From contig JAJFGP010000076.1 of the NCBI GenBank assembly GCA_021776055.1, positions 1 to 35,050 of the forward strand: a stretch of DNA of 35,050 nt, in the 5' to 3' direction. The notes under the pieces are model-generated. The model saw nothing but the letters and a program-made list of their open reading frames with translations, was not told the origin of the DNA and did no database searches. Shown piece after piece: positions 28,521 through 35,050 of the stretch. The stretch's first letter is position 1; the number at the start of each line of letters is the position of its first letter. The DNA comes from Kiloniellaceae bacterium. GTDB taxonomy: Bacteria; Pseudomonadota; Alphaproteobacteria; Kiloniellales; J153. Position numbers and translations under genes: made by a program.

Positions 28521-29669
28521 ATGAGGCCATCCATCGCGATCGCCGCTCCCTATGCGGCGTTTTACGGCGCCTTGTTTCTGGCGATGGGAATTCAATTGCC
28601 GTACTGGCCCATCTGGCTGGGCGGTCGGGGCCTGTCGCCGGAGCAGGTTGGGCTGCTGTTCGCGCTCACCGCCTGGGCCAAGGTTGCCGCCACACCGATC
28701 ATCGCGCAAGTCGTGGACCGGATTGGACAGCCGCGAGCAATCCTGGCGGTGCTGGCGACGACCGCCTCGGTATGCTTTGTCTTGTTCTTTTTTACGCACG
28801 GTTTCTGGCCGATCCTGCTGGTCAGCCTGCCCATGGGAATCTGCTTCAGCGCCATGATCCCGATAAGCGAACGGCTGACCATGGCGGCGGTCATGAAGGC
28901 GAAAATGGATTATGGCCGGGTCCGCCTGTGGGGGTCGGTCGCCTTTGTAGTTGGCGTTCTTGGCGCCGGCAGCTTGCTGACCGGCCGACACCCCGATCTC
29001 ATCCTGATGATGATCCTAGGGGTGATGGCAATCGGCGTCGTCACCGTCGCGACACTACCGCGCCAGCCGGCGGCCGCCCTTGGCGGCGACCGGTTCAGTC
29101 CGGGTATCCTCCTGCGCGACCGGCATTTCCTGTTGTTCCTCGCCGTCGGCAGCCTATTGCAGGCAAGTCACGCCACGTACTATGCCTTTTCCGCCATCCA
29201 TTGGCAGGCGGCCGGCCTGAGCAGCACCATGATTGGCGCGTTGTGGGCCGAGGGTGTGGCGGCAGAGGTTATCTTCTTCGCCGTTTCCGCGCCGGTGCTC
29301 GCACGAACCGGGCCGGTTGTGCTGCTGCTCATTGCCGGCCTGGCCGGCATTGTGCGCTGGACGGTTCTCGGCATGACCACGGACCTGCCCGCTCTGTTCG
29401 CCGTGCAACTCCTGCATGCGGCAACCTTTGGCGCCGCGCATTTCGGTGCCATGCATCTGGTCACCCGTGCCGCGCCACCAAATCTCGCGACCACAGCACA
29501 AGGCCTGTATTCGGCCGCGGCCGGCGGCATTGGCATCGGGTTGGCGCTGCTCTTGGCCGGCCGGCTTTACGGAATCAACCAGGCCAGCGCGTTCCTGGCC
29601 ATGGCCGGATTGAGCGCCGGTGGAGCGCTGTTGGCCGTTCTATTGCATCAGTGGGAGCGGCAGCGTTAG
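28521..29669 (+). CDS. MFS transporter, HcaT/MFS_1-like
   Basis: A 382-residue membrane protein with about twelve hydrophobic segments. Seen: YGALFLAMGIQLPYWPIWLGGRGLSPEQVGLL at the start, typical of the HcaT/3-phenylpropionate-type branch of the major facilitator family, then the loop-2/3 region and YGRVRLWGSVAFVVGV (R-L-WGS motif of this branch), and AAHFGAMHLVTRAAP in the second half. The transported compound is unknown. It is divergent from the alcohol dehydrogenase (114 bases between starts). Its stop overlaps by 4 bases the stop of the convergent Sel1 gene. Confidence 0.9.
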   Translation: MRPSIAIAAPYAAFYGALFLAMGIQLPYWPIWLGGRGLSPEQVGLLFALTAWAKVAATPIIAQVVDRIGQPRAILAVLATTASVCFVLFFFTHGFWPILLVSLPMGICFSAMIPISERLTMAAVMKAKMDYGRVRLWGSVAFVVGVLGAGSLLTGRHPDLILMMILGVMAIGVVTVATLPRQPAAALGGDRFSPGILLRDRHFLLFLAVGSLLQASHATYYAFSAIHWQAAGLSSTMIGALWAEGVAAEVIFFAVSAPVLARTGPVVLLLIAGLAGIVRWTVLGMTTDLPALFAVQLLHAATFGAAHFGAMHLVTRAAPPNLATTAQGLYSAAAGGIGIGLALLLAGRLYGINQASAFLAMAGLSAGGALLAVLLHQWERQR

Positions 29670-30151
29670 TGGTTGGCGCGCCAGCGCGCCAGACGCGCCT
29701 CGGCCTCAGCCATCTGCGCCTTGCACAGAGAGCCGGCAAGCTCACGCCGGCGCATTTCCGGCCATTGCCGCCCTTGCGCGGCGGCTAGGCTGAACCAAAC
29801 GTAAGCGCTGACCGGATCGACGGGTCCACCAATGCCCCGTACATAGGCATCGCCAAGGTTGAGTTGCGCTACGGCATCCCCTGTCTCAGCAGCAAGATGG
29901 TACCAGCGCAGTGCCTCGGCCACGTCGGCACGAACACCTTGGCCGGAGAGATAAAGTCCCGCAACGGCGACCTGGGCCGTGCTATCGCCGCTTTCTGCCA
30001 GCGGCCGCCACTCGGCAAACGCACCGCGATAGTCACCCGCATCGTAAGCAGCGAGCCCGTCGGCAAAACCCGCCTGCGCGGGTACCGCCAGCACCGGCAA
30101 CCAGGTGGCAATAACCCAGGCGGCAAGGGCGATGCGTCGCAGGGTTCGCAT
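29666..30151 (-). CDS. Sel1-repeat secreted protein
   Basis: A 161-residue protein. Seen: signal peptide (MRTLRRIALAAWVIATWLPVLAVPAQA), then three Sel1-type helical repeats: GDYRGAFAEWRPLAESG, STAQVAVAGLYLSGQGVRADVAEALRWYHLAAETG and VAQLNLGDAYVRGIGGPVDPVSAYVWFSLAAAQG, followed by a charged helical tail. Known of the family: protein-interaction solenoid in the periplasm. The signal peptide and the repeat sequence resemble the partial Sel1 gene at the window's left end. It is 64 bases downstream of the CNPC-repeat cytochrome on the same strand and may be read from the same message. Confidence 0.88.
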   Translation of the reverse strand: MRTLRRIALAAWVIATWLPVLAVPAQAGFADGLAAYDAGDYRGAFAEWRPLAESGDSTAQVAVAGLYLSGQGVRADVAEALRWYHLAAETGDAVAQLNLGDAYVRGIGGPVDPVSAYVWFSLAAAQGRQWPEMRRRELAGSLCKAQMAEAEARLARWRANH

Positions 30152-30215: not shown

Positions 30216-31346
30216 TTAGCGCGAGACCCGGTATTCTTCCGGTAGGAACATCATCGAGTCGGCATCGGGTGCTACCGAGATATGGCAACCGATACAGAAC
30301 TCAACGTTGGCATCGCCGGCACCCTTGGTGGTGCCGAAGACCGAGCCGTCGGGCATGATCATGGTATAGCGCCAATTGCCGCTGTCGGCGTTGAAGCCGG
30401 CCTTCATCTTCTCCATCAGGAACAATGGGCCAGCCATGACCTTGCCGTCCGGCGTGACCGAGAAGCTGTCCTTCGCAAGCGCCGTGCCCGCCGGCATGGT
30501 GCCGGCCTGCTCGTAGTTGCCATAGGCGCGACCGGTCTCGTTGGCGTAGTTCTGCACGTATCGATTGCCGTGCGTGCCCGAGATATAGGGCTGCTTGCTA
30601 AAGCGCGGCCAAGACCCGTACGAGACGGCGATCTTGTTGTCGGACTTGCTGTAGGCCGCCTTCAACTCTTTCGACAGGCAGTCGTAGACCTTGACCGCCT
30701 CGGCGTCCGTCAACTCGACCGGACCCGCGGCGCCACACGGATTACAGGGATTGCACGCCGAAGCCGCACACGGATTGCACGGGTTCTTCGCCGCACAGGG
30801 GTTGCACGGATTGCAAGCCTTCTTCGCGGCGCAGGGGTTACATGGGTTGCATGCCTTCTTGGCGGCACAGGGATTACATGGATTGCAGGCGCTCTTCGCG
30901 GCGCACGGGTTGCAGGGGTTGCACGCCTTCTTGGCGGCGCAGGGATTGCACGGATTGCACGCCTTCTTGGCGGCGCAGGGATTGGCCTTGGCCGCCGCTT
31001 GCAGGCGCGGAACAAAACAGGCCTTGCTGGTGGCGCCACCGCCGGCCGCGCAGGGATTGCATGGATTGCACGGGTTACAAGGATTGCAGGGGTTCTTTGC
31101 CGCGCAGGGATTGCACGGGTTGCACGGATTGGCTTTCTTCGCCGCGCACGGGTTGCACGGATTACAAGCGGCCGCACATGGGTTCGCCTTCTTTGCCGCA
31201 CATGGGTTGCACGGGTTACAGGCAGCCGCCGCGGCCGGCGATATGGTCACGGCATTGGACAGCACCGCACCGCCAACAGCCACGCCGGCCGCGACCATCA
31301 GCGGGACCATCGTGGTCGATAGAAGAACTCTTTTTCTGGATAGCAT
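30216..31346 (-). CDS. Exported cysteine-repeat protein with cytochrome P460-like heme domain
   Basis: A 376-residue protein. Seen: a long signal region (1-41, ending PAAAAA), then residues 43-204 made of CNPCNPC blocks joined by AAKKA-like linkers (37 cysteines), broken once at about 101-123 ([19 protein letters not shown]). From about 208 a globular domain follows: [75 protein letters not shown], and the heme c motif CIGCH (Cys351, Cys354, His355). This domain matches cytochrome P460/c'-beta family proteins, which oxidise hydroxylamine or bind NO. The repeat half is not a family I can name; metal binding, heme relay or thiol buffering are possible. The first cysteine lies right after AAAAA, so lipidation cannot be excluded. 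GGAGGG is 5 bases before the ATG. Confidence 0.9.
30735..31220. repeat. Tandem repeats coding the CNPCNPC array
   Basis: DNA units of about 36 bases code for [12 protein letters not shown]-type blocks on the minus strand. Units are not identical copies: cysteine codons vary TGC/TGT and asparagine codons AAT/AAC while the protein stays the same. This is a coding repeat and not a CRISPR array. Confidence 0.85.
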
Positions 31347-31502
31347 CTTTTCCCTCCCGGACCGTGATCCCCTTAGCCACCCAACCGGATGGCGCGCCGG
31401 ACCCGGACATGTTGCTGGCGCTGTTCAAAATGAGTCGCGTCGACTGTAGTCCGCGACGTGTTTCTCCGTAGAATCACTGCGCGTCACAATCCCGTGAGGG
31501 GT

Positions 31503-31538: not shown

Positions 31539-32174
31539 CTAATTGAGAAAGCGGACCCGGTATCGCTCTGGCACATAAAATAGGTGATCCTGCTCGTGGC
31601 CGGCTTCTTTGTGGCAGGTGATACAGAACTCCACCCGCTCGGCCCCCTCGCCGTTGGTCACGCCGAACAGGCTGCCATCCGGCATATACATGGAATAGCG
31701 CCAGTCGCGGCTTTCCGGATTGAACCCGGTGGACATCTTCTCCATGACGAACAACGGCCCGCTAAAGACATCGCCACGTGCCGTTACCGCGAAGCTGTCC
31801 TTCACCAAGACCGACCCCTTGGGCAAGTTTCCAGACGCCTCGAAATATCGGTAATTGCCCGCAATTTCATTGGCGTAGTTGCTCACGTATCGCTCACCGT
31901 GCTGAGCCGAACGATACGGTACGGTATTATAGCGCCGCCAAAGACGGTATTTTTCGGCGCCCGGAAATGACGACAGCCGGTAGCCCGCAACCATTTCGTC
32001 AAGGATCCGGTTATAGATGGTCAGCGCATCCGCGCCGGTTAGCCCCGCCGGCCTCTCGACACGGAAATGGCGCGTTGGCCTTGCCGCATCGTCGGCGTCC
32101 TGCGCCACCGCTGGCGTGCCAAGCAAGACCAAGGCCGTAACACAGGCAATAAAGCGTGGTTTGGGGGTCGGCAT
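31539..32174 (-). CDS. Cytochrome P460-like monoheme protein
   Basis: A 211-residue exported protein, paralogous to the heme half of the gene at 30216 but with no cysteine repeats. Seen: signal peptide (MPTPKPRFIACVTALVLLGTPAVAQ), then LTGADALTIYNRILDEMV, QHGERYVSNYANEIAG, GSVLVKDSFAVTARGDVFSGPLFVMEKMSTGF, WRYSMYMPDGSLFG and CITCH (Cys184, Cys187, His188). The conserved blocks line up one by one with its neighbour. Known of the family: periplasmic c-type proteins of the P460/c'-beta group linked with hydroxylamine or NO chemistry. The start at 32174 begins the signal peptide; longer readings to 32318 add sequence with no support. It lies 192 bases upstream of the repeat-bearing paralogue, so the two may share a transcript. 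Confidence 0.87.
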   Translation of the reverse strand: MPTPKPRFIACVTALVLLGTPAVAQDADDAARPTRHFRVERPAGLTGADALTIYNRILDEMVAGYRLSSFPGAEKYRLWRRYNTVPYRSAQHGERYVSNYANEIAGNYRYFEASGNLPKGSVLVKDSFAVTARGDVFSGPLFVMEKMSTGFNPESRDWRYSMYMPDGSLFGVTNGEGAERVEFCITCHKEAGHEQDHLFYVPERYRVRFLN

Positions 32175-32457
32175 CGATCGCCTTTCCGCCTCTCGTCGCC
32201 ACATAATCCGCTCATCAATTCGGTGCCGAGAGGCCGCCACAAAATCGGGAGAGCACCACCTTAGGACCGCACTAACCCAGTGCAGACTAGGTCCCCGGCG
32301 CTCGATTCCACCACACACGTTCGATCACAAGCGATTGATGCCCGGGTATAAGGACGGTCCCATTGGATGCGGGAGCCAACATGGCGCAGTGCCGCGAGTC
32401 CCTACAAGGCCCACATACCACCCCAGGACCCAAGGTTCCGTTAACCACGAATTCCCC
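32175..32457. other. Divergent intergenic region, no gene seen
   Basis: 283 bases between the P460-type gene (minus) and the Suf regulator promoter (plus); with the promoter and operator the gene-free stretch reaches 348 bases. No coding frame with family features. I looked for FNR and CRP-type sites and saw only poor matches. Confidence 0.55.
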
Positions 32458-32486
32458 TTGATTTGCGGGTGGTTTCCTCATATTTA
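32458..32486 (+). promoter_or_regulatory. Sigma-70-type promoter of the suf operon
   Basis: TTGATT (32458-32463), 17 bases, TATTTA (32481-32486). Transcription would start near 32493, only about 30 bases before the regulator's ATG and inside the inverted repeat that follows. Confidence 0.55.
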
Positions 32487-32490
32487 CAAA

Positions 32491-32514
32491 CCATACTGAT
32501 TTACTCCGGTATGG
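32491..32514. promoter_or_regulatory. Candidate operator of the Suf regulator
   Basis: CCATAC (32491-32496) and GTATGG (32509-32514) are exact reverse complements 12 bases apart, with GATTTACTC between. The ATAC...GTAT edges recall type-1 sites of IscR-like Rrf2 proteins. The repeat covers the predicted transcription start and reaches the ribosome site. Confidence 0.45.
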
Positions 32515-32522
32515 AGGGTGCG

Positions 32523-32984
32523 ATGTTCAAGCTCAACCGGCTGACCGATTATGCGGTTGTCGTCATGAGCCAAATGGCGAGGCGGCTGGACGAGGTGCGC
32601 ACGGCGCCGCAGATCGCCCAGGAAACGGGCGTGCCGCTGCCAACGGTCGCCAAGCTTTTGAACGCCCTGGCAAATGGCCAGCTCATTCTGTCGCGCCGAG
32701 GCGCCACCGGTGGCTACACCTTGGTGCGGCCGGCTGAAGAAATCACCGTGGCTGAAATTATCCAAGCTTTGGAAGGGCCTATCGCCCTGACCGCCTGCGT
32801 CGAAGGATCCGGCGACGGCTGCGACGTGGAATCTCTGTGCCCGATGCGCGGTAACTGGAACAAGGTCAACCGCGCCATCCACGGCGCCCTCTCGCAAGTC
32901 ACCTTGGCGGACATGGCCATGGGGGGACTGCCGTTCGCGCCGCCAACAGGCGGCGATGGGCGTGAAAAAACTACATCTGCGTGA
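32523..32984 (+). CDS. Rrf2-family Suf operon regulator (IscR-like)
   Basis: A 153-residue transcription factor. Seen: N-terminal winged HTH typical of Rrf2 (LNRLTDYAVVVMSQMAR, then GVPLPTVAKLLNALANGQLILSRRGATGGYTLVRP), and three cysteines at 92, 100 and 106 (ACVEGSGDGCDVESLCPM) placed like the Fe-S ligands of IscR. The sequence resembles the SUF-system regulator group of Rrf2 proteins. Known role: senses Fe-S cluster supply and controls Fe-S assembly genes. The ATG at 32523 follows GGAGGG and begins the Rrf2 fold; an ATG at 32511 would add 4 residues. It heads the suf operon and probably controls it through the inverted repeat on its promoter. Confidence 0.92.
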   Translation: MFKLNRLTDYAVVVMSQMARRLDEVRTAPQIAQETGVPLPTVAKLLNALANGQLILSRRGATGGYTLVRPAEEITVAEIIQALEGPIALTACVEGSGDGCDVESLCPMRGNWNKVNRAIHGALSQVTLADMAMGGLPFAPPTGGDGREKTTSA

Positions 32985-33043
32985 CCTATTTCAACACGAT
33001 ATGGACCCTATTTAACATGCACATTGAGTATAGGAACGGATGA

Positions 33044-34498
<1,455 letters not shown>

Positions 34499-34507
34499 GG
34501 GACGGCA

Positions 34508-35050
<543 letters not shown>

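Follow-up and report, generated by a model that had tools for sequence, protein, structure and literature searches.

What might an exported protein do with 37 clustered cysteines joined to a heme domain? The question is raised by a gene in a 35,050-nucleotide stretch of DNA from a marine Kiloniellaceae bacterium (assembly GCA_021776055.1, contig JAJFGP010000076.1; the whole stretch is called the window here). The gene lies on the minus strand at 30216..31346 and, as judged from its open reading frame (ORF) and its relatives, encodes a CNPC-array/P460-fold fusion protein. The ORF is uninterrupted, specifies 376 amino acids, and is immediately preceded on its 5' side by a ribosome-binding-like sequence. 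Its parts, all on the minus strand, follow in the order signal-like N terminus, cysteine array, and P460-fold c-type heme domain. Residues 1 to ~41 (31224..31346) read as an export signal with a predicted cleavage site. Sequence, tandem-repeat, and composition analysis placed the array at residues 43-206 (30729..31220), where 37 of the 40 cysteines of the whole fusion lie within 164 residues (22.6% Cys) and His, Met, Asp, and Glu are all absent. The heme domain occupies residues 208-376 (30219..30725), and the Cys, Cys, and His of its heme attachment motif CIGCH (30282..30296) are invariant in 56 sequences.

Tandem units of 36, 72, and 108 bp were detected in the array DNA of the window with Tandem Repeats Finder (TRF). 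Eight copies of one 10-residue repeat differed at a mean of 5 of 10 third codon positions and nowhere else. Such silent-only differences indicate that the array peptide is under selection; judged by sequence, the copies are old duplications in which the peptide was kept while the DNA drifted. Relatives were collected in two ways, by searching 38 relatives and by scanning 84,980 species genomes once. This gave 275 candidate stretches encoding relatives, of which 80 were kept, and ~95-99 distinct in-frame fusions were examined. Because the repeat differences are silent and the in-frame fusion recurs in ~95 distinct relatives, the array is neither a product of chance nor a translation artifact. 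The first-pass annotation, which had described an exported protein joining a 37-cysteine CNPC array to a P460-like domain with a CIGCH site, is therefore borne out, and its concern that the repeat half might be absent or frameshifted in close relatives proved unfounded. It had, however, treated the array as one continuous run. The array is real but broken by a conserved island, CFVPRL in the window (31002..31019, minus strand), whose consensus C-x-[VI]-P-[RSG]-L was kept in 91/95 fusions and absent from all 43 array-only proteins, a term used here for exported arrays without a heme domain.

The fusion is a widespread alphaproteobacterial family. By record title, marine Rhodospirillales, Kiloniellales, Sneathiella, Anderseniella, and Hyphomicrobiales make up most of the carriers, among them isolates of Sneathiella and Pelagibius. 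DNA coding for CNPCNPC was present in 19 of 289 alphaproteobacterial genomes. Outside Alphaproteobacteria, a phylum-wide sample returned three single CNPCNPC matches, each from a different genome, which were treated as chance. Variant arrays (NPCAAK, CGAKAKCGACGAK) lie beside the same partner genes in several genomes without the exact patterns. Array size ranged from 6 to 107 Cys across the fusions, and the extreme proteins hold 110 and 92 Cys overall (L063:3401-5725 and L065:5224-6972, respectively). A leader-type motif was found for 69/95 fusions; among the array-only proteins, 18/43 have it. One exported array-only protein of 102 amino acids is encoded on contig C170 of the same genome as the window (L191:5987-6295), where it adjoins a pyridine-nucleotide disulfide oxidoreductase gene. 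The array matched no Pfam or NCBIfam family and is unnamed in both, and no paper with the repeat strings was found in the open-access literature searched, in agreement with the earlier remark that no named family with this plan is known. The same literature yielded nothing relevant for DUF6969 (see below) or for cytochrome P460 combined with cysteine-rich.

The survey of taxonomy and gene neighborhoods that the first-pass annotation had proposed found array-P460 proteins across many Alphaproteobacteria and returned two recurrent neighbors. DUF6969 was encoded near the fusion in 42/80 loci, and an exported FGE-sulfatase-domain protein (FGE-like) in 41/80 loci, usually divergent and ~100 bp away. 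Co-occurrence was assessed in 289 genomes of the class, with an array scored when one or the other of two repeat patterns was present (29 genomes). DUF6969 was present in 27 of these 29 genomes and the FGE-like protein in 14, while 18 of the 20 FGE-like genomes also held DUF6969. For one of the two array genomes without a DUF6969 match, the contig is 4.2 kb long and ends in the FGE-like gene. The FGE-like and DUF6969 genes are adjacent in the genome of the window, on a different contig; a second DUF6969 copy, on contig C141 (L190:3938-4672), stands without an FGE-like gene or an array gene within the 8.5 kb read. The FGE-like partner carries the full PF03781 domain in 38/38 members and scores under every NCBIfam equivalog cut-off.

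A second recurrent feature of the fusions is an inverted repeat in their upstream regions, TCAC-N6-GTGA, often followed by N6-TTGA. In the window this CenR-type promoter element, TCACGGGATTGTGA-N6-GTGA, lies at 31474..31497 on the minus strand, has its core at 31484-31497, and precedes the fusion start codon by 138 bp. At spacer 6 the element was found for 41/94 fusions, 17/72 FGE-like genes, and 13/43 array-only genes, compared with 0-4 for other spacers. Among the remaining ORFs in these loci, 33 of 993 had it, and some of the 993 overlap upstream regions of the system; overall, 114 copies were counted in 1.5 Mb, 89 of them at system genes. The CenR site of the Sinorhizobium meliloti srlA promoter is AGTCAC-N6-GTGACT and is backed by mutation and gel shift (PMC9561847). 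In Rhodobacter sphaeroides, CenR activates envelope, disulfide, and cytochrome biogenesis genes, and dsbC, msrA, and genes for cytochrome c maturation belong to its regulon (PMC9275681). We infer from the element that CenR controls the array fusion genes. No excess over shuffled sequences was obtained upstream for FNR/NnrR, NsrR, or CueR sites. Strict CenR-type elements also precede genes of other kinds, with names read from sequence: one COX2-like gene, KorA-like genes from two genera, one DUF3179-like gene in the same genome as the window, and one gene similar to srlA (thioredoxin-like, CSSC) (L220, L212, L251, L215, and L235).

The strict motif in relatives also matched a bufferin operon. 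Among 92 upstream regions of MNIO enzyme genes, 23 copies of the element were found, compared with 0-4 at other spacers, and 19 of the 23 lay 250-800 bp before MNIO. Most of these 19 are found shortly ahead of the bufferin precursor gene. The element occurs at about a fifth of MNIO/bufferin operons. Alphaproteobacterial bufferin operons (DUF2282, Buf2-like) with the element are exemplified by L249:1765 and L250:1552, with ~20 further regions. Arrays and bufferins thus have a promoter element in common, though arrays do not need MNIO. A link between CenR and bufferins is predicted on this basis and was not mentioned in the literature checked. Bufferins chelate copper, fusions of Buf1, Cytochrom_C, and FGE-sulfatase domains have been reported, and FGE has been called a cuproenzyme (PMC12452194). 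These reports independently link cysteine-rich copper peptides, c-type heme, and FGE domains.

The most plausible role of the array appears to be metal or thiol buffering, with both the metal and the redox state of the array putative. We tentatively favor a CenR-controlled periplasmic buffer of thiols or soft metal (Cu+) that is tethered to a gas-binding or redox heme, a bufferin analogue that would operate without MNIO. Envelope stress would activate CenR, which would induce the arrays. The CxxC array would then, in the periplasm, bind soft metal ions, most likely Cu+, and/or take up oxidizing equivalents; it would protect the envelope in the manner of bufferins, without thiooxazoles made by MNIO. 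The tethered heme could bind a diatomic gas (nitric oxide, NO) or shuttle electrons to or from the thiols or metal of the array, and DUF6969 in the cytosol and the FGE-like protein in the periplasm may service or mature it. The fusion could then be the heme-carrying member of an exported cysteine-array system, a proposal that we hold with similar caution. In favor of buffering, the array offers soft ligands only, and the promoter element common to fusions and copper-buffering bufferins strengthens this interpretation. Several observations weigh against it. About half of the fusions and the array-only gene in the genome of the window have no perfect element, and the FGE-like/DUF6969 operon of this genome, besides its location on another contig, has no CenR-type element. 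CenR governs general envelope stress, not copper specifically, and the Pfam tally of neighbors of the fusion loci contained no copper transporters. Arrays do not co-occur with MNIO (8/26 versus 94/240 genomes). The co-occurrence p values (1e-18 for array with DUF6969 and 9e-12 for array with the FGE-like protein) treat genomes as independent without correction for phylogeny, which overstates significance.

The strongest competing explanation assigns the partner genes a more active part. The array would be acted on by a new modification system resembling those for ribosomally synthesized and post-translationally modified peptides, in which DUF6969 and/or the FGE-like protein modify cysteines and the modified array is functional, with the heme domain as redox partner. 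We consider this possible but rather unlikely. Apart from the close association of DUF6969 with the array, it is favored by the confidently predicted DUF6969 fold, with a predicted local distance difference test (pLDDT) score of 90.4 and invariant residues that include His, Asp, and Glu. No credible PDB match was obtained for this fold (best Foldseek E 0.8, best VIA Z 4.0), which does not prove a new fold, and no relatives were found among PDB sequences. The FGE-like partner has an invariant C-x2-C (CGVC/CGIC) in the loop that holds the cysteine pair of FGE, arrays carry leaders of a family type, and exported precursors with modified cysteines are already known from MNIO bufferins. In FGE, the cysteine pair, C-x4-C after GGS, forms the copper site, and the enzyme targets the Cys of CxPxR. 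The repeat core of the array, C-N-P-C, recalls this target, but CxPxR itself was found in only 6/95 fusions and 0/43 array-only proteins; canonical FGE action on CxPxR was rejected on this ground. The cysteine spacing of the partner is unlike that of FGE, and 35 genomes encode DUF6969 but have neither array pattern. The more specific proposal of an undescribed system in which DUF6969 and an exported FGE-superfamily oxidase modify CNPC arrays, some of them fused to P460 heme, under CenR as a non-MNIO counterpart of bufferins is likewise doubtful.

Other explanations start from the heme domain. The C-terminal half of the fusion matches Cytochrome_P460 (PF16694) with E=1.2e-6, above the curated cut-off. 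An AlphaFold2 model based on 56 relatives reached a pLDDT of 93.8, and its closest solved folds are P460 and c'-beta cytochromes, with VIA Z scores of 12.7 (7ead), 12.3 (9hrk), and 8.5 (2je2) versus 5.3 for the next unrelated fold. A P460 family profile found no relatives among PDB sequences. Twenty-four columns of the domain are invariant in the 56 sequences. Two of them bear on its chemistry, although their assignment rests on a remote alignment, ~20% identity, to Nitrosomonas europaea P460 (NeP460). In the profile alignment, domain Lys85 (residue 292) aligns with the cross-link Lys70 of NeP460, and domain Phe102 (residue 309) with its catalytic Glu96, the counterpart of which is Asp102 in McP460. 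The distal carboxylate is required for hydroxylamine oxidation, and NsP460, which has the Lys but Ala at this position, is inactive; cytochromes c'-beta have Phe or Met, not Lys, at the cross-link position (Table 2, PMC11928373). Since the carboxylate position is invariantly Phe, no hydroxylamine oxidation is predicted, and the domain is probably a Lys-containing P460 relative other than a hydroxylamine oxidase. At L164:5592-6728 (minus strand), next to genes for DUF6969 and a fusion, a separate protein of the P460 fold is encoded that has zero Cys, and so no CxxCH heme site, behind a similar leader.

The Phe in place of the carboxylate and the many thiols beside the heme would suit a nitric oxide module, in which the P460/c'-beta heme captures NO and the array stores S-nitrosothiols or iron-thiolate-NO complexes. 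This is improbable, however, as upstream regions are not enriched in FNR/NnrR or NsrR sites, array-only proteins and partner genes exist without the heme domain, and the cross-link Lys is retained, unlike in c'-beta proteins. A still less probable explanation is a structural or sacrificial envelope protein, in which disulfides would cross-link the array into a network at the surface or in the periplasm, with the heme incidental. It would accommodate the highly variable array length, the low-complexity composition, export, and the envelope-type promoter element, but not the strong conservation of the heme domain, the conserved island, or the two specific partner genes. A P460-type hydroxylamine oxidase with the array as electron or metal reservoir, in line with the hydroxylamine reactivity once considered for this protein and with the PF16694 match and cross-link Lys, is very improbable and was rejected because the distal carboxylate is missing and, by the precedent of NsP460, Lys does not suffice.

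The neighborhood of the fusion gene in the window was also inspected. Upstream, in the same direction, lies a second P460-fold gene without a cysteine array (31539..32318, minus strand; ORF, domain match, and relatives), the start of which is probably near 32174. Directly downstream is a gene for a Sel1-repeat protein (29666..30151, minus strand), which occurs in the same place in ~12 related loci and may be functionally tied to the fusion. Cytochrome c, Sel1, and MsrB (SelR) proteins are the commonest immediate neighbors of fusions. Divergent from the P460 pair, a SUF regulator gene (Rrf2, TIGR02944) is followed by sufB- and sufC-like genes (32463-35050, plus strand), and this same neighborhood was also seen in some Kiloniellaceae relatives.

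The analysis turns an odd ORF into a defined system, with arrays of up to ~107 Cys, two partner families, and a heme domain with an unusual pocket. DUF6969 enters it as a partner family without known function or matching fold and, if the system works as proposed, might carry out a novel cysteine chemistry or handle the array. If arrays and copper-buffering bufferins do have the predicted regulator in common, CenR would couple envelope stress and exported thiol/metal buffers across the alphaproteobacteria.

Finally, the system was compared with known ones. With the CenK-CenR regulon of S. meliloti (srlA) and R. sphaeroides it has in common the inverted repeat TCAC-N6-GTGA with the same spacing upstream of the start codon, and membership of arrays and bufferins is predicted from this element. 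The heme domain resembles the cytochrome P460/c'-beta superfamily in fold, CxxCH, and cross-link Lys, and differs from it by the invariant Phe and the cysteine-array fusion. It agrees with hydroxylamine-oxidizing P460 in fold, heme site, and the Lys at the cross-link position but not in the carboxylate, and the Lys sets it apart from cytochrome c'-beta. The partner protein shares its full PF03781 domain with the FGE-sulfatase superfamily (SUMF1/FGE, PvdO, EgtB), but departs from FGE in cysteine spacing (C-x2-C versus C-x4-C) and in the near absence of CxPxR from its putative substrate. Metallothioneins and bacterial copper-storage proteins are likewise high in Cys with CxxC motifs, whereas the window protein is exported, built of repeats, fused to a heme domain, and without a family match. 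From bufferins (Buf1/DUF2282, Buf2), the system of the window differs by the lack of a DUF2282/Buf signature, far longer arrays, and other partner genes. Its own genome encodes no MNIO enzyme (PF05114), so that an MNIO-modified bufferin was rejected there. With neither precursor signature nor MNIO, the fusion is not a bufferin, but it may work like one: both are exported and cysteine-rich, and both often have the same TCAC-N6-GTGA element upstream.
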